From contig NFUV01000002.1 of assembly GCA_002127295.1 (NCBI GenBank), positions 744,001 to 808,000 of the forward strand: a DNA stretch of 64,000 nt, in the 5' to 3' direction. Under the pieces are notes generated by a model, which worked only from the letters and a program-made list of their open reading frames with translations, had not been told where the DNA came from and ran no database searches. Of the stretch, positions 4,038 to 26,986 are shown piece after piece. Each line of letters starts with the position of its first letter. Within the stretch, counting starts at the first letter, position 1. Source of the stretch: Chitinophagaceae bacterium IBVUCB2 (GTDB lineage Bacteria; Bacteroidota; Bacteroidia; Chitinophagales; Chitinophagaceae). Both the position numbers and the translations under genes were made by a program.

Positions 4038-6473
4038 ATGACAGATTGTCTAAAGAAGATTATGGATATAAATATTGAAAAATTTTTGCTGCGCTCAGAA
4101 GATGAGATGGATTTTATGCCGATTATTCCGTTGAATGAAACAGACCATGAAGATCCTAATAGTATTGCAGTACCTGAAGAGTTACCCTTATTACCGCTTA
4201 GAAATACAGTGCTGTTCCCCGGCGTGGTATTACCGATTACGGTGGGCCGGGATAAAAGCATCAAAGCTGTAAATGAAGCCTACAAAACTGACAAACTGAT
4301 AGGAGTGGTGGCGCAAAAAGACACCAATGTAGAAGATCCTGAAATAAAAGATTTGGAAAGTATTGGTACGGTGGCCAAAATTGTTAAGCTGATAAAGATG
4401 CCCGATGGAGGTACAACCATCATCATACAGGGTAAAAGCCGTTTCCTTATTGAATCAATTGCCGATGAAGAGCCTTACTTCAGGGCTAAAATAAAAAAAC
4501 TGCATGAAGAAGAATCTCCAAAAGATGCGGATTTTGATGCATATGTAGCAAACATTAAAGATCTGGCGGCTGATATTGTTCAGTTATCGCCCAATATTCC
4601 TACAGAAGCTTCTATCATTCTCCGGAACATTGAAAGTCCTGCTTTCCTGATCCACTTTGTTTCCAGTAACCTGAATACAGATATCAAAGACAAACAGCGA
4701 TTGCTGGAGTTAAATCAAATACGTCAACGGGCCGATCTGCTGATGCAGTTGCTGCAAAAAGAATTACAGTTTGCCGAGTTGAAAAATAAAGTAACCACTA
4801 AAACGAGAACCGAGTTAGATAAACAGCAACGGGAATACTTTCTGCAACAACAGATGAAAAGTATTAAAGAAGAATTAGGTGGCGACAGCAATTCACAAGA
4901 GATAAAAGAAATGCAAAAAAAGGCTGAAACAAAAAAATGGCCTGTTACTGCAAAAGAAATGTTCAAGAAAGGGATTGAAAAATTAGAGAGAATGCACCCA
5001 AGCACTCCCGATTTTTCAGTAGTGTATAATCATCTTGATTTGATGCTTGAACTTCCATGGGAAGATTATACCGAAGACCATTACGATCTGAAGAAAGCTC
5101 AAAAGACTCTTGATAGCGATCATTATGGAATGAAAAAAATCAAAGAACGTATTTTAGAATATCTAGCAGTATTGAAGTTGAAAGGTGATATGAAAAGCCC
5201 GATACTTTGTTTTGTAGGCCCTCCGGGAATTGGTAAAACTTCATTAGGCCGTAGTATCGCCAATGCTATCGGAAGAAAATATGTTCGTCTAAGTCTTGGT
5301 GGATTACATGATGAGAGTGAAATAAGAGGACATCGTAAAACATATATAGGCGCTATGCCGGGACGTATTTTACAATCCTTACGGAAAGTAAAATCATCCA
5401 ACCCGGTAATGATTTTGGATGAAATAGATAAAGTGGGCAGCGATCACCGTGGCGATCCTTCTTCTGCTTTACTGGAAGTATTAGACCCCGAGCAGAATCA
5501 TACTTTTTATGATAACTATTTGGAGGGAGAATATGATTTAAGCAAAGTGTTATTTATCGCCACTGCTAATAACTTTCAAAATATCCAGCCGGCATTAAGG
5601 GACAGGATGGAAGTAATTGATTTAAGTGGCTATGCAGTAGAAGAAAAAATTGAAATTGCAAAGCGACATTTATTTCCCAAACAAAAAGAATTGCATGGAC
5701 TTAAAAGCAGTGATTTTAAGATCAGTGATAAAGTATTGGAAAAAGTAATCCAGGATTATACAAGGGAGAGTGGGGTGAGGGAGTTAGACCGCCAGCTTGC
5801 TTCTATTATGCGTTACCAGGCAAAAGAATTGGCTTTTAAAGGGAAATTAAAAGCTACACTTACTGCTGATGACATTGAAACAATCATCGGCAAACCAAGA
5901 TACAGCAACGATATTTATAAAACGGCGAATATGGCCGGCGTAGCTGTTGGACTTGCCTGGACGTATGTGGGCGGTGATATTCTGTTCATAGAAGCAAGTT
6001 TAAGTGATGGTAAAGGTGAATTGCGGCTGACGGGTAATTTAGGAAATGTGATGAAGGAAAGTGCCAGTACTGCCTTAAGTTATTTGCAAGCCAATGCCAA
6101 GAAATATAAACTGGATGGAAAACTTTTTGAAAAGAAGAACATTCACATACATGTTCCCGAAGGAGCTGTCCCTAAGGATGGTCCGAGTGCAGGTATTACC
6201 ATGATGACAGCCATCGCCTCAGCATTAACAGGCTACCGGGTAAAGCCATTTTTAGCCATGACGGGTGAGATAACCCTGCGTGGGCAAGTATTACCGGTAG
6301 GTGGGATAAAAGAAAAAGTATTGGCAGCAAAAAGAGCTGGGCTAAAAGAAATTATTCTTTGTTCCCAGAATGAAAAGGATGTGGAGGAAATTGATTCAGC
6401 TTTTATAAAAGGCATTAAGTTTCATTATGTAAAAACCATGAGCCAGGTATTGGAAATGGCATTGGTTAAATAG
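4038..6473 (+). CDS. lon: Lon endopeptidase (ATP-dependent AAA+ serine protease)
   Basis: 811 residues, full length for LonA. The order is an N-terminal substrate-recognition domain (about 46-240, with LPLLPLRNTVLFPGVVLPI), a coiled-coil linker, an AAA+ module with Walker A GPPGIGKT at 394-401 and Walker B VMILDE at 457-462, then the protease domain. The Ser-Lys dyad is intact: Ser717 in PKDGPSAG and Lys760 in LPVGGIKEK. Lon degrades misfolded and regulatory proteins in the cytoplasm. The start may instead be the ATG at 4062 (MDINIEKF), which has AAGAAG just upstream; either leaves all domains complete. No heat-shock operator was identified upstream. Confidence 0.98.
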   Translation: MTDCLKKIMDINIEKFLLRSEDEMDFMPIIPLNETDHEDPNSIAVPEELPLLPLRNTVLFPGVVLPITVGRDKSIKAVNEAYKTDKLIGVVAQKDTNVEDPEIKDLESIGTVAKIVKLIKMPDGGTTIIIQGKSRFLIESIADEEPYFRAKIKKLHEEESPKDADFDAYVANIKDLAADIVQLSPNIPTEASIILRNIESPAFLIHFVSSNLNTDIKDKQRLLELNQIRQRADLLMQLLQKELQFAELKNKVTTKTRTELDKQQREYFLQQQMKSIKEELGGDSNSQEIKEMQKKAETKKWPVTAKEMFKKGIEKLERMHPSTPDFSVVYNHLDLMLELPWEDYTEDHYDLKKAQKTLDSDHYGMKKIKERILEYLAVLKLKGDMKSPILCFVGPPGIGKTSLGRSIANAIGRKYVRLSLGGLHDESEIRGHRKTYIGAMPGRILQSLRKVKSSNPVMILDEIDKVGSDHRGDPSSALLEVLDPEQNHTFYDNYLEGEYDLSKVLFIATANNFQNIQPALRDRMEVIDLSGYAVEEKIEIAKRHLFPKQKELHGLKSSDFKISDKVLEKVIQDYTRESGVRELDRQLASIMRYQAKELAFKGKLKATLTADDIETIIGKPRYSNDIYKTANMAGVAVGLAWTYVGGDILFIEASLSDGKGELRLTGNLGNVMKESASTALSYLQANAKKYKLDGKLFEKKNIHIHVPEGAVPKDGPSAGITMMTAIASALTGYRVKPFLAMTGEITLRGQVLPVGGIKEKVLAAKRAGLKEIILCSQNEKDVEEIDSAFIKGIKFHYVKTMSQVLEMALVK

Positions 6474-22653: not shown

Positions 22654-22671
22654 TTGCAGTGTTTCAAGGGA

Positions 22672-22704
22672 AAAAGCCTTGTCTTAATTGACAGGGCTTT
22701 TTTA
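22672..22704 (+). terminator. Rho-independent terminator
   Basis: AAAGCCTTGTC (22673-22683) pairs with GACAGGGCTTT through one G-T wobble over a 6-base loop, followed by T-run. It ends the DUF885 gene and insulates the kai operon. Confidence 0.82.
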
Positions 22705-22845
22705 TGTAACATAATAAACAGACAAATATCATTTAACTCAACATGAACAGTATCCTACTCAGCCCTTTTCTTAATCTACAAAATGTGCAAATATTTCCAC
22801 AGACCTTCCCCTTTTCATTCGCTTTTCCGCTTTTTTTTCCGGCTT

Positions 22846-22853
22846 TATATTTG
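22846..22853 (+). promoter_or_regulatory. Candidate -7 element of the kai operon
   Basis: TATATTTG, an exact TAnnTTTG match, lies 47 bases upstream of the kaiC ATG and downstream of the DUF885 terminator. A TTTTC stretch about 20 bases upstream may serve as a weak -33 box. Confidence 0.45.
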
Positions 22854-22900
22854 TCATTTTCTTGAAGTTTAAGATTTGATTTTAAAATATTAAATTTTTT

Positions 22901-24625
22901 ATGGCCACTGTAACCAGGAAAAAGAAAAAATCTGTCCCCTCACCTCCATCATTCCCAAAATCGTTAACAGGCATTAGTGGTTTCGATGAAATTACGCAAG
23001 GCGGTTTGCCGAAAGGCCGGCCTACATTAATATGCGGAGAAGCTGGTTGTGGTAAAACATTGTTTGCAATGGAATTTATTGTAAGGGGTGCCGTGCAATA
23101 TAATGAGCCGGGTGTTTTTGTAGCTTTTGAAGAAAAGACAGATGAACTTGCAGCAAATGTTGCTTCCCTGGGATTTGATCTCAAAAAGTTAATAAAGCAA
23201 AATAAAGTACGTATTGATCATGTTCATATTGAGCGGAGCGAAATTGAAGAGACCGGCGAATATGACCTGGATGGATTATTCATACGCCTTGAACATGCTA
23301 TCGATTCTATCGGAGCTAAAAGAGTAGTACTTGATACCTTAGAAAATCTTTTTTCGGGATTGAATAATGAGGCAATTCTTCGGGCAGAACTAAGAAGGCT
23401 TTTTCAGTGGCTGAAAGAAAAAAATGTTACAGCCATCATCACCGGGGAAAAAGGAACGGGTATGCTAACCCGTGAAGGATTGGAAGAGTATGTATCTGAT
23501 TGTGTCGTTTTATTGGACCATCGTGTAAATAACCAAATTTCTACCCGCCGACTCAGGGTGATAAAATACAGGGGGTCATCCCATGGTACCAATGAATATC
23601 CTTTTCTTATTGATGAAGACGGGATTTCTGTATTACCGGTTACCTCTTTAAAAATGGAAGCTAAAATTTCATCTCAAAGAGTCTCTACAGGCATACCTAC
23701 TTTGGATGAAATGCTGGATGGTAAAGGTTTTTTTAAGGGAGGTAGTATACTCGTTTCCGGGACAGCTGGTACTGGTAAAACAAGTACAGCAGCCTGCTTC
23801 GCAGATGCAGCCTGCAAAAGAAATGAACGCTGTATTTATTTTGCGTTTGAAGAATCACCGGATCAGATAATCCGTAATATGCTTTCTATAGGTGTAGATC
23901 TTAAGAAGCATATTGATAATGGATTGCTGAAATTTCATGCATCACGACCTACAATGTACGGATTGGAAATGCACCTGGTAGTCATTTACAAAATGATAAA
24001 AAAATTTAAACCTAAAACAATAATTCTTGATCCAATTAGTAATCTTATTACGGTAGGTAATGTTGGGGAAGTGAAATCTATATTAACAAGATTGATCGAT
24101 TTTTTACAGACACAACAGATAACGGTAATGTTTACAGCATTAGCACTCAACAATATTGTTAACGAACAAACTGATGAAGGAGTTTCTTCTTTAGTGGATG
24201 CCTGGATATTAATCAGGGATATTGAATTGAATGGCGAACGAAACAGGGGTCTGTATATTATGAAAAGCCGTGGTATGAATCATTCCAACCAGGTTCGGGA
24301 ATTTACCATCACCAATAAAGGACTGAATCTGGAAGAAGTGTACCTGGGGCCTGATGGAATCTTAACAGGCTCTTCAAGACAAGCCCATTTATTACAGCAA
24401 CAAACAGAAGCTTTGCTTTTGAAACATTCTCTTGGTCGTAAGGATAAAGAAATAGGAAGAAAAGCGAAAGAATTACAGGCTAAGATCGCTACACTTACTT
24501 CTGAGTTTGAATCAATACAAGAAGAACTTAAGAATGATTTTATAGAGCAGGAACTGAGAAAAGAAGTAGTGCAAAAAAACCGGGCTGAACTTATTTCATT
24601 AAGAGGTAATAAAAAGATCAAATAA
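22901..24625 (+). CDS. kaiC: KaiC-like clock ATPase / autokinase
   Basis: 574 residues with two RecA-like domains, as in cyanobacterial KaiC. CI: Walker A GEAGCGKT at 46-53, catalytic Glu pair at 77-78, Walker B VVLD at 142-145. CII: Walker A GTAGTGKT at 287-294, Glu pair at 317-318, Walker B IILD at 374-377. The phosphosite position (Ser431/Thr432 in Synechococcus KaiC) aligns with Ser429-Ser430 in DEGVSSLVDAW, and IMKSRGMNH matches the following conserved strand. The KaiA-binding tail is replaced by a charged coiled coil at about 495-565. First gene of a five-gene operon with two KaiB proteins, a histidine kinase and a response regulator. No kaiA is present. Confidence 0.95.
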   Translation: MATVTRKKKKSVPSPPSFPKSLTGISGFDEITQGGLPKGRPTLICGEAGCGKTLFAMEFIVRGAVQYNEPGVFVAFEEKTDELAANVASLGFDLKKLIKQNKVRIDHVHIERSEIEETGEYDLDGLFIRLEHAIDSIGAKRVVLDTLENLFSGLNNEAILRAELRRLFQWLKEKNVTAIITGEKGTGMLTREGLEEYVSDCVVLLDHRVNNQISTRRLRVIKYRGSSHGTNEYPFLIDEDGISVLPVTSLKMEAKISSQRVSTGIPTLDEMLDGKGFFKGGSILVSGTAGTGKTSTAACFADAACKRNERCIYFAFEESPDQIIRNMLSIGVDLKKHIDNGLLKFHASRPTMYGLEMHLVVIYKMIKKFKPKTIILDPISNLITVGNVGEVKSILTRLIDFLQTQQITVMFTALALNNIVNEQTDEGVSSLVDAWILIRDIELNGERNRGLYIMKSRGMNHSNQVREFTITNKGLNLEEVYLGPDGILTGSSRQAHLLQQQTEALLLKHSLGRKDKEIGRKAKELQAKIATLTSEFESIQEELKNDFIEQELRKEVVQKNRAELISLRGNKKIK

Positions 24626-24663
24626 TACTTCGTAAAAACTATTTACAAAATATATAAATAATA

Positions 24664-24957
24664 ATGGCAGTAAAGGAAAAAAAATGGCAGTTGAAATTAT
24701 ACGTAGCGGGTCAAACACTTAAATCCGTAACGGCTATAAACAACCTCAATAAATATTGTGAAACACATTTAAAAGGGCAGTATACCATTGAAGTGATCGA
24801 TCTGTTAGTGAAACCACAATTAGCAGAGGGGGATCAAATTTTTGCAATTCCCACATTAGTGCGAAAAGTGCCGGTGCCGATCCGTAAAATAATAGGTGAT
24901 CTTTCTAATGAAGAAAAAGTATTAGTTGGATTAAATATTATTCCAGTAAAAATCTAA
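24664..24957 (+). CDS. kaiB: KaiB-like protein 1
   Basis: 97 residues, the length of cyanobacterial KaiB (about 100). The thioredoxin-like/fold-switch sequence is well kept: [60 protein letters not shown]. KaiB binds the KaiC CI ring after fold switching and recruits output or input factors. It lies 38 bases after kaiC and 29 bases before a second kaiB. Of the two copies this one is closer to the canonical KaiB consensus ([15 protein letters not shown]). Confidence 0.95.
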
Positions 24958-24986
24958 TTTATTAATGTTAGTGAAATAAATATGTA

Positions 24987-25307
24987 TTGAAAAAAAATAA
25001 CACTATAACTCCGGCCTATGTTTTACGACTCTTTATAACCGGTGCTTCACCAAATTCTATAAGGGCGGTAAATAACATAAAAGTTATTTGCGAAAAATAC
25101 ATAAAGGATAATTATGTCCTGGAGATTATAGATGTTTACCAACAACCGGCTGTAGCTAAAAATGAGCAGATTATTGCACTGCCATTATTGTTAAAGACGC
25201 ATCCATTTCCAGTAAGAAGGTTGATAGGGAATATGTCTGATACCGATAAGGTTTTAAGAGGTTTGGATTTGGATGGAAAAATTAATACAGATACAATTGA
25301 CAAATGA
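24987..25307 (+). CDS. kaiB: KaiB-like protein 2
   Basis: 106 residues. The core LRLFITGASPNSIRAVNNI, YVLEIIDVYQQPAVAKNEQI, ALPLLLKTHPFPVRRLIGNMS is a KaiB domain clearly diverged from the first copy, with a C-terminal extension after GLDLDG. The only upstream start compatible with the domain is TTG at 24987; the ATG at 24982 is followed at once by a stop. Its last 35 bases overlap the start of the histidine kinase gene, so dosage may be set by coupling. Possibly one KaiB serves the KaiC ring and the other the kinase, but this is inference. Confidence 0.9.
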   Translation: MKKNNTITPAYVLRLFITGASPNSIRAVNNIKVICEKYIKDNYVLEIIDVYQQPAVAKNEQIIALPLLLKTHPFPVRRLIGNMSDTDKVLRGLDLDGKINTDTIDK

Positions 25308-26541
25308 AAATAATACATATAACGATCTGAGCATACAGGTAGAGGAACTTACACATCAGCTTAATGAGGCTAATGAGATCATTGAAGCCATAAGAAAAGG
25401 AGAGGTTGATGCTATAATTGTGAAGAATGAAGAAAAGCATGAGGTCTACACTTTGCAAAGCGCCGATAAGGCCTATAGGATCTTTATTGAAAAAATGAAT
25501 GAAGGTGCATTAACCCTTAATAAGGACGGCCTTATCATATATTCCAATTCCAGTTTTGCAAACCTTGTAAATATGCCATTGGAAAATGTGATCGGGTTCA
25601 ATTTTATAAACTTTATACCCGATGCCTACAGGAATAGTGTTGCAGAACTTATGGAAACAGCATGGAAGAAGCAGGAAAGTAAAGGAGAAATAGTATTCGA
25701 TGGCAAAATAAAAATGGTACCCGTTTTATTATCGATGAATATGTTAGAGATTGATGGTGGTATTGCTCTTAGCGTAATTGCTACGGATATTACCTTGCAA
25801 AAAGAAACTCAACAACATAAAAAGGCATTGGAAAAAAAGGATGAATTTATATCTATTGCCAGTCATGAGTTAAAGACACCGGTAACAAGTATTAAAGGGT
25901 ATGTTCAACTGCTGCGGTATAATTTTCAGCAAGATGGTAATACCACGGCAGCAGATCTATTGACCAAGGTAGATGTGCAGATCAATAAGCTCACCAACCT
26001 GATCGGTGATCTGCTGGATGTGAAAAAAATAGAAAACGGGCAATTGCAATACCATGAAGAAGCTTTTGATTTCAACATTTTGGTGAATGAGGTTATAGAA
26101 GAAACAGAACGAGTATTAAAAAAACACCCGATAGTGGCTACGCTTTCAGAAAGCAAAACGATTTTAGGGGATAGAAATAAAATAGGACAGGTGATTACAA
26201 ATTTACTTGAAAATGCAAGTAAGTATTCGGAAGCAGGTTCAGTTATAAATGTAGAAAGTTCAGTAAAAGATAACAATAGGATAAGCTTAAGCGTAAAAGA
26301 TAAGGGCATTGGCATACCCAAAAATCAGTTGAATAAAATATTCGAACGGTTTTTCAGGGTAAGCAGTGAAAAAGAGAATACTTATTCGGGGCTGGGACTG
26401 GGATTATATATTTCTGCTGAAATTATTAAACGACATAATGGTATAATAGGAGTAGAGAGTGAAGAAGGAAATGGATCAACTTTTTATTTTGAATTACCAG
26501 TTTATAATAAACAAGAGAAAGAAAATGCAAGCAAAGGATAA
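25273..26541 (+). CDS. PAS-domain sensor histidine kinase of the kai operon
   Basis: 422 residues, no membrane segment, so cytosolic. Order: short N-terminal coiled coil (about 17-45), PAS domain (about 65-175, LTLNKDGLIIYSNSSFANLV), HisKA with phospho-acceptor His198 in SIASHELKTP, and HATPase with N-box Asn314, DKGIG at 343-347 and GLGLGL at 373-378. All catalytic motifs are intact. The kinase is encoded inside the kai operon, overlapping kaiB2 at its start and the response regulator at its end (17 bases). It is the likely output or input kinase of the KaiC cycle, comparable in role to SasA but without a KaiB-like sensor domain of its own. Confidence 0.93.
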   Translation: MEKLIQIQLTNENNTYNDLSIQVEELTHQLNEANEIIEAIRKGEVDAIIVKNEEKHEVYTLQSADKAYRIFIEKMNEGALTLNKDGLIIYSNSSFANLVNMPLENVIGFNFINFIPDAYRNSVAELMETAWKKQESKGEIVFDGKIKMVPVLLSMNMLEIDGGIALSVIATDITLQKETQQHKKALEKKDEFISIASHELKTPVTSIKGYVQLLRYNFQQDGNTTAADLLTKVDVQINKLTNLIGDLLDVKKIENGQLQYHEEAFDFNILVNEVIEETERVLKKHPIVATLSESKTILGDRNKIGQVITNLLENASKYSEAGSVINVESSVKDNNRISLSVKDKGIGIPKNQLNKIFERFFRVSSEKENTYSGLGLGLYISAEIIKRHNGIIGVESEEGNGSTFYFELPVYNKQEKENASKG

Positions 26542-26932
26542 GAAAATATTTATTGCAGATGATGATGCAGATATATTGCAAATAATCGGTATGATCCTTA
26601 AAACCCAGGGATACCAGGTTGTTACCAGTACCAATGCAAAAGATATATTTAAATATGCAGCAAAAGATCTGCCCGATATTATCCTTTTGGATATATGGAT
26701 GTCGGGGATAGATGGAAGAGATATCTGCAGTCAATTAAAGAGTCAAGAGCTGACAAAAAATATTCCGGTTCTTTTTATTTCTGCCAATTCTAATATTGAA
26801 GAAATTGCAAAGACCTATAAGGCAGATGGGTATATTGCTAAACCATTTGAAATGGATCATTTATTGGAACGTATCAATGCTTTTTTTTCTTATAGGAATT
26901 TTAATACCCGGCAGTTTAATTATATTCCCTAA
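26525..26932 (+). CDS. Single-domain response regulator of the kai operon
   Basis: 135 residues from the ATG at 26525 (MQAKDKKIFIADDDADI). A longer frame from 26459 runs inside the kinase gene and is rejected. It is a bare receiver domain: acidic cluster Asp12-Asp14, phospho-acceptor Asp56 in ILLDIWM, Ser86 in FISAN and Lys106 in IAKPFE. No DNA-binding domain, so output must pass through a protein partner or a further phosphotransfer step. It is the last gene of the kai operon, and a bidirectional-looking hairpin terminator follows. Confidence 0.93.
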   Translation: MQAKDKKIFIADDDADILQIIGMILKTQGYQVVTSTNAKDIFKYAAKDLPDIILLDIWMSGIDGRDICSQLKSQELTKNIPVLFISANSNIEEIAKTYKADGYIAKPFEMDHLLERINAFFSYRNFNTRQFNYIP

Positions 26933-26938
26933 AATATT

Positions 26939-26980
26939 AAAACCCTTGTCTAACTCAATTTTGACAAGGGTTTCTGTTTT
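26939..26980 (+). terminator. Terminator after the kai operon
   Basis: AAACCCTTGTC (26940-26950) pairs perfectly with GACAAGGGTTT (26963-26973), loop of 12 bases, then a T-rich stretch. It lies between the response regulator stop and the 3' end of the opposing tRNA gene, and could serve both strands. Confidence 0.75.
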
Positions 26981-26986
26981 TATTAG

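Follow-up and report, generated by a model that had tools for sequence, protein, structure and literature searches.

Two KaiB paralogues of opposite predicted fold and a kinase-borne module in a KaiA-less kai operon of a Chitinophagaceae bacterium

Operons in which kaiC and kaiB are followed by the gene of a histidine kinase (HK) have been described earlier (PMC4794148, PMC3164672), and Kai proteins of Bacteroidota are also known already, including a group of Bacteroidetes that encodes only KaiB2/KaiC2-like proteins (Schmelling 2017, PMC5520375). In that work KaiB2 denotes a class of homologues, which is different from the kaiB2 discussed below, the kaiB gene in second position. Here, we analyze a kai operon of Chitinophagaceae bacterium IBVUCB2, located at positions 22846-26980 of a stretch of 64,000 nucleotides (nt), called the window in the following, within a genome of about 4.0 Mb. 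The order kaiC-kaiB1-kaiB2-kinase turns out to be conserved, the two KaiB proteins are different paralogues for which opposite folds are predicted, and the kinase starts with a short module that in the sampled genomes is confined to kai operons, chance-level matches apart.

The closest described system is the KaiBC hourglass of Rhodobacter sphaeroides KD131 (Pitsawong 2023, PMC10076222), which has in common with the window a Ser-Ser pair in KaiC, a coiled C-terminal tail and the lack of KaiA. The R. sphaeroides operon (locus L104) shows the same kaiC-kaiB-PAS kinase order and the same module on its kinase (74.7 bits), but it has one KaiB, an HWE core instead of HisKA and no receiver directly behind, and its host is a phototroph. 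In the main text of the structure paper (PMC10076222), neither a histidine kinase nor SasA is mentioned. The kaiC-kaiB-PAS/HK operon of Rhodopseudomonas palustris (PMC4794148) has the same gene order, and bioinformatics there gives one transcript and one promoter; it differs in having one KaiB, and a proto-circadian role has been shown for it, whereas the window is known from its sequence.

Three further systems can be compared with parts of the locus. The Legionella KaiB Lpp1115 (4kun) is in the fold-switched state (PMC10808063, PMC11551320), the state that is also predicted for the window KaiB2; KaiB2, however, accompanies a KaiB of the ground-state type, and Lpp1115 is not its closest match by sequence. 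The cyanobacterial SasA (6x61, 1t4y) is a kinase for coupling the KaiC clock to output, a role that the window kinase may have by analogy. While SasA has a fused KaiB-like domain, the window kinase has no PF07689 match, and hhalign against the KaiB2 profile shows no similarity of its module to KaiB (probability 0.4). The KaiC-linked kinases of Ramlibacter (PMC3164672) are likewise dedicated ones encoded behind kaiC, and they have an N-terminal domain of their own, 'RtaNt', but they have no kaiB, their KaiC is of the SY/TY/SF type, and the domain was likened to SasA and KaiB. In the literature, we found no paper whose title or opening abstract treats tandem KaiB proteins of opposite fold or this module, although a mention deeper in a text or table is possible.

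The operon, its conservation and its KaiC

The features of the locus are listed below (lengths in amino acids, aa; AF2, AlphaFold2).

22670..22703, + strand: terminator hairpin of the preceding gene and boundary of the operon (fold of -22.3 kcal/mol for 22660-22712, z -6.5 against shuffles)
22901..24625, + strand: kaiC, putative double-domain KaiC2-type ATPase/autokinase, 574 aa (PF06745 twice, 375 bits)
24185..24190, + strand: codons of S429-S430, predicted autophosphorylation pair in CII (aligned to the Ser pair of 8dba)
24368..24622, + strand: C-terminal extension of KaiC (aligned by phmmer to the R. sphaeroides KaiC coiled coil)
24664..24957, + strand: kaiB1, 97 aa, predicted ground-state (fold-switching type) KaiB (PF07689, 90.8 bits; AF2)
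24987..25307, + strand: kaiB2, 106 aa, TTG start, predicted thioredoxin-like (fold-switched) KaiB (PF07689, 80.5 bits; AF2)
25273..26541, + strand: soluble PAS histidine kinase, 422 aa (PAS, HisKA, HATPase_c)
25309..25494, + strand: N-terminal module of the kinase, residues 13-74, proposed Kai output adaptor (alignment A4)
26525..26932, + strand: lone receiver, 135 aa from ATG, without output domain, lineage-specific (PF00072)
26940..26973, + strand: terminator hairpin of the operon (fold of -15.9 kcal/mol for 26935-26985, z -4.6 against shuffles)

From the coordinates of the open reading frames (ORFs), the intergenic distances are 38 nt for kaiC-kaiB1 and 29 nt for kaiB1-kaiB2, and the coding ends overlap by 35 nt for kaiB2-kinase and by 17 nt for kinase-receiver. 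Coordinates and domain matches thus agree with a preliminary description of this DNA, which had reported five co-directional genes with overlaps or gaps below 40 nt. The two flanking terminators that it had placed around them are also borne out by the comparison with shuffled sequence, which recovers both, while a simple hairpin scan misses the second and, for the first, gives only an alternative of shorter length. The operon kaiC-kaiB1-kaiB2-kinase-receiver between two terminators is therefore confirmed as real; the domain scores of its five genes are too high for chance, and in order and direction it agrees with the kaiC-kaiB-PAS/HK operon class. It is followed by a tRNA-Leu on the opposite strand. 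The exact pattern of a Bacteroidota-type promoter has 0 matches anywhere in the 64-kb window.

The host genome has no match to KaiA (PF07688), in a search in which the Synechococcus elongatus control was positive, and a profile search of the genome finds no KaiB beyond kaiB1 and kaiB2. We count no second KaiC in the genome, because the remaining PF06745 matches have at most 39 bits and lie in ORFs of 345-460 aa.

The arrangement recurs in relatives. A KaiB over the cut-off is present in 38 of 392 Bacteroidota genomes, in 21 of these in tandem, and in 36 of 294 Chitinophagaceae genomes, 33 of which have tandem kaiBs; three genomes of the host's own genus in the latter sample have no KaiB. The order kaiC-kaiB1-kaiB2-kinase is found in Mucilaginibacter, Dyadobacter, Niastella, Ferruginibacter, Flavobacterium and others. 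Outside the phylum, kaiC-kaiB-kaiB together with a kinase occurs on a Pararhizobium plasmid and in a metagenome-assembled genome of Omnitrophota (L020), and 4 of the 11 Pseudomonadota kai loci examined (L151, L152, L155, L157) have kaiC-kaiB-kaiB-kinase. One of the checks that the preliminary description had named, co-occurrence in relatives, thus comes out in its favor, and its view that KaiBC without KaiA forms a unit with a kinase is supported. The locus belongs to the KaiBC class without KaiA that is already known, as a variant with two KaiB proteins.

Some loci depart from this arrangement. On two Hymenobacter plasmids (L102, L108) and in L100, there is a kaiB of the KaiB2 type with no kaiC within the fetched stretch. 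In L066 and L098, from the same phylum (family f35), kaiB lies between two kinase genes, again with no kaiC in the stretch.

We now turn to the class of the KaiC, for which 96 loci were compared after identical, partial and short KaiC rows had been dropped. The best PDB matches of the window protein are entries of R. sphaeroides KaiC (8dba, 655 bits; 8fwi, 651 bits), against about 320-330 bits for full-length KaiC entries of the S. elongatus and Thermosynechococcus elongatus type. The alignment with 8dba reaches residue 571 and covers the C-terminal extension, which in R. sphaeroides joins two hexamers (PMC10076222); the window protein continues for 100 residues after G474. The GKT loops are present, as are the catalytic Glu pairs E77/E78 and E317/E318; the latter and the Ser-Ser pair are invariant across 24 KaiC sequences, and the Ser-Ser phosphosite pair is found in 63 of 63 loci with kaiB1 and kaiB2. 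The protein has the two domains, the two serines and the C-terminal coil extension of about 50 residues of the KaiC2 or R. sphaeroides type, while the cyanobacterial KaiABC type differs by its KaiA and by a Ser-Thr instead of a Ser-Ser pair. On the basis of the Ser-Ser sites and of the extension that aligns with R. sphaeroides KaiC, we assign the window KaiC to the putative KaiA-independent KaiC2 class. A role of it in energy sensing is plausible, given its homology with the KaiC of R. sphaeroides (PMC10076222).

The two KaiB proteins

The preliminary description had noted two KaiB proteins, which are indeed present, but it had missed that they are different from each other. We compared 71 kaiB pairs; L110 and L137 were excluded, as were four identical sequences. 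The KaiB in position 1 is of the A1 type in 71 of 71 pairs and that in position 2 of the A2 type in 68, the other three being near ties; this typing is partly by construction, as the window together with 19 and 23 of the relatives built the two profiles. The KaiB proteins in position 1 share 78% identity on average and those in position 2 share 54%, compared with 46% between the two members of one locus.

The structures were predicted by AF2 from close relatives only (20 sequences for KaiB1, 24 for KaiB2), which resembles an approach tested on KaiB in PMC10808063. For KaiB1, the model has the ground-state fold at low confidence (pLDDT, the confidence score of the model, 64, with the C-terminal half at about 51-66 by blocks), and its top 17 structural matches in the PDB are all ground-state KaiB. 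The KaiB2 model has a thioredoxin-like fold (pLDDT 79), and its top 11 matches are all fold-switched KaiB, followed by the N-terminal domain of SasA. The exchanges I68R, V83D and N84R are known to flip R. sphaeroides KaiB (PMC10808063). All 71 KaiB1 proteins have hydrophobic residues at sites 68 and 83, while a charge is found at one or both in 63 of the 71 KaiB2 proteins; in the window KaiB2, the residues at 68, 83 and 84 are V, R and G.

In a KaiB tree of 113 rows, to which 190 had been thinned, with few columns and with 63 of 110 inner branches open, the position-1 rows group with the KaiB of R. sphaeroides and T. elongatus and most position-2 rows are separate. The position-2 rows require 7 changes, and a single duplication is therefore not shown. 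A long-tailed KaiC is found in 66 of 82 loci with a KaiB1-type KaiB and in 1 of 14 loci with the KaiB2 type only, which indicates that the ground-state KaiB type goes with the KaiC coil. A separate subsystem of Bacteroidota (L018, L021, L023, L028) has a coil-less KaiC and KaiB of the KaiB2 type only, with a kinase that still has the module.

The kinase module and the receiver

The soluble PAS histidine kinase of the preliminary description is also confirmed, but its N-terminal module, which in the sampled genomes is confined to kai operons, had escaped attention there. The module has about 60 residues, and its window copy corresponds to no Pfam family over the cut-off and to no NCBIfam family. 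A profile from alignment A4 (24 rows, 62 positions) was searched in 392 Bacteroidota, 294 Chitinophagaceae and 299 Pseudomonadota genomes, the first two of which were also searched with the KaiB profile.

Among the Bacteroidota there are 30 matches, 29 of which (57-107 bits) lie directly behind kaiB; the remaining one (G012, 22 bits) is in an unrelated ORF. In the Chitinophagaceae, all 34 of 34 are directly behind kaiB. In these two draws, whose module-positive genomes are 61 different ones with two shared, the kaiB-adjoining matches share the strand of kaiB and follow it at 20-287 nt. No module was found in 9 of the 38 Bacteroidota and 2 of the 36 Chitinophagaceae genomes with a KaiB over the cut-off. 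The Pseudomonadota give 13 matches (nine at 57-83 bits, two at 28-36, two at 21-22): ten (L150-L159) are behind kaiB in a kaiC-kaiB operon, one (L160) is behind a 78-aa remnant with similarity to KaiB and KaiC, and the two weakest (L161, L162) sit in unrelated ORFs. The total is thus 11 of 13 next to kai genes, or 10 of 12 without G673, the center of the draw, whose operon was known beforehand. The three non-kai matches over all draws are near the threshold, with none above 23 bits. The idea that such a motif is common in kinases outside kai operons is not borne out in the phyla sampled, Bacteroidota and Pseudomonadota. A tblastn search of plasmids with one module sequence returned its own record only, a method that is too weak for this purpose.

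The locus L160 deserves a separate remark, since the remnant ORF there directly precedes a PAS-HD protein with a worn module and the whole looks like a decayed kai operon.

The same picture emerges from the kai loci. Of 111 fetched loci with KaiB, 97 have an ORF of at least 200 aa starting near the end of the last kaiB, and the largest such ORF carries the module in 88 of the 97, with a profile built from the same set. In the nine others, the ORF is a KaiC (L075, L079, L107, L141, L144), the locus has KaiB without KaiC (L064, L066, L098), or it is L099. The remaining 14 loci lack such an ORF, but in L014 and L137 among them a shorter or displaced one carries the module. A module partner is found in 82 of 91 loci with Ser-Ser KaiC and in 0 of 5 with Ser-Thr KaiC.

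What follows the module is variable. According to a Pfam scan of 17 module-bearing proteins, it is fused to HisKA kinases, to HWE kinases (L104, L154), to kinase-receiver hybrids (L101, L150, L152, L016, L159, L081), to HD_5 domains (L071, L160) that we take to be HD-GYP-like, to GGDEF-EAL (L158), to PAS alone (L087) and to PAS with a weak GAF (L156). The catalytic families are unrelated, so the module has kept its place beside kaiB while they changed. We read it as a candidate Kai output adaptor.

For the lone receiver the result is different. The preliminary description had treated it as part of a fixed five-gene set, and we have abandoned this view. In a survey from which the duplicate loci L112 and L130 and loci without the kaiB1-kaiB2 pair or a partner ORF were dropped, a lone receiver behind the kinase is found in 1 of 22 loci of the window's own SHELxTP H-box class, namely the window itself. 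The SHDLxEP class has one in 22 of 35 loci, of a different (EDDxDD) type, and kinases with other H-boxes have a weakly scoring receiver in 2 of 8; as the profile was built from the receivers first found together with that of the window, distant ones may be missed. Fisher tests on these counts and on the placement of the module ignore the relatedness of the genomes. In L004, L065, L067 and L068, a receiver similar to that of the window is found upstream on the opposite strand, next to a different kinase. The window receiver itself has an acidic pocket, Asp, Ser and Lys that look canonical from the sequence, and phosphotransfer from the kinase to it is therefore plausible, but lineage-specific.

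Proposed mechanism, alternatives and implications

It is somewhat more probable than its opposite, in our judgment, that the locus encodes a KaiA-less KaiBC timer or energy gauge with an output enzyme of its own, for which we infer the binding steps, the phosphotransfer steps and the timing itself. By homology with R. sphaeroides, KaiC would autophosphorylate at S429/S430 without KaiA at high ATP, two of its hexamers would be joined through the C-terminal coils, and it would be dephosphorylated as ADP rises. KaiB1, as a fold-switcher, would bind slowly to the CI ring and thereby set a delay. KaiB2 would stay in the thioredoxin-like, KaiC-binding shape and could act as a second ligand with no need for a fold switch, either competing with KaiB1 for the ring or marking the ring for the kinase. 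The latter would read the Kai complex via its N-terminal module, which from its sequence would be a helix plus short strands, and the module would pass the Kai state through PAS to the HisKA/ATPase core, from which the phosphoryl group would, in this lineage, be handed to the lone receiver.

The physiology of the host bears on this proposal. Its label as a heterotroph in the preliminary description should be used with caution, since a rhodopsin gene is present in the genome outside the window (G000:C2:948169-948825, 153.5 bits; positions 4119-4856 of locus L164). The protein has D, T and E at the positions of the proton-pump motif, and the following gene looks like a carotene dioxygenase of the Blh/Brp type. 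The host may thus be a photoheterotroph, and light could shift its ATP/ADP ratio, given the rhodopsin. A phytochrome PHY domain was not found in the host genome.

A number of observations weigh against the proposal. The receiver is not conserved at this place, and a family-wide link between KaiB and rhodopsin had to be given up, with rhodopsin in 4 of 36 KaiB-positive and 22 of 258 other Chitinophagaceae. KaiB2 may still switch its fold, because the prolines linked to toggling are mostly kept (65 in 70 of 71 proteins, 67 in 66 of 71), and its best sequence match is an ordinary cyanobacterial KaiB (4kso, 106.5 bits), with the Legionella 4kun tenth. The model of KaiB1 is weak, and a fold preference in AF2 is not thermodynamics. 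As to the module, 9 of the 91 Ser-Ser KaiC loci lack a module partner (some are on short contigs). It is also found beside a single KaiB (L104 and others) and with a coil-less KaiC (L018, L023), and hence needs neither KaiB2 nor the coil.

We have also considered other explanations. It is possible, and we hold this tentatively, that the system gates the kinase by the ATP/ADP state of KaiC and has no biologically useful delay or rhythm, being a switch for stress or energy of the kind reported for the Legionella kai operon. This would suit a host that is not a cyanobacterium and the patchy occurrence of the kai genes, with 38 of 392 Bacteroidota positive and the three genomes of the same genus negative; the fold-switched Legionella KaiB is also matched by the KaiB2 model (ranks 2-3) and has 92.8 bits with the KaiB2 profile vs 74.4 with that of KaiB1. 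On the other hand, both KaiB1 and the KaiC with its coil correspond in type to the hourglass of R. sphaeroides, and through the rhodopsin light could move ATP. An unlikely option is that KaiB2 is the KaiC-reading domain, signaling to the kinase in trans like a SasA in two parts, while the module merely docks KaiB2. Its gene is the one that adjoins the kinase in the pairs, with overlapping coding ends, and the protein is predicted to be fold-switched with SasA among its structural matches. With the KaiB2 profile, SasA also reaches 21.9 and 20.3 bits, vs 14.2 with the KaiB1 profile, where 1t4y is unlisted, a comparison in which the greater diversity of the KaiB2 profile helps its scores. However, in R. 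sphaeroides, Rhizobium and others the same module is found behind a single KaiB1-type KaiB, with no second KaiB in the operon. KaiB2 is therefore not required for output there, and its role as an obligatory partner of the kinase has lost ground.

We find it quite improbable that the module is a common coiled-coil leader of PAS domains, with a link to kai that reflects the shared ancestry of one kinase gene instead of Kai binding. The first half of the module does resemble a generic coiled coil, coiled-coil proteins being its best PDB matches, and 10 of its 24 members weakly resemble LysR_substrate (best E 4.6e-5). The lack of matches above 23 bits outside the kai context in all three draws and the unrelated families of the catalytic parts behind the module speak against this explanation. 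Returning to the proposed timer or energy gauge, we give an even chance to a wider reading: Ser-Ser KaiC systems without KaiA would share one module as the adaptor for interchangeable enzymes and, in the two-KaiB operons, would have a toggling and a locked, always-on KaiB on one ring.

The output route of KaiA-less KaiBC timers is the question for which the module provides a small and direct target. Two KaiB proteins of opposite predicted fold in one operon constitute a natural experiment on the contribution of fold switching, and the pair is relevant to the proposal that a fold-switched KaiB gave rise to the toggling one by duplication (PMC11551320). For the Bacteroidota, the operon would extend a possible light- or energy-timed system, in the present case in a host with a rhodopsin gene.

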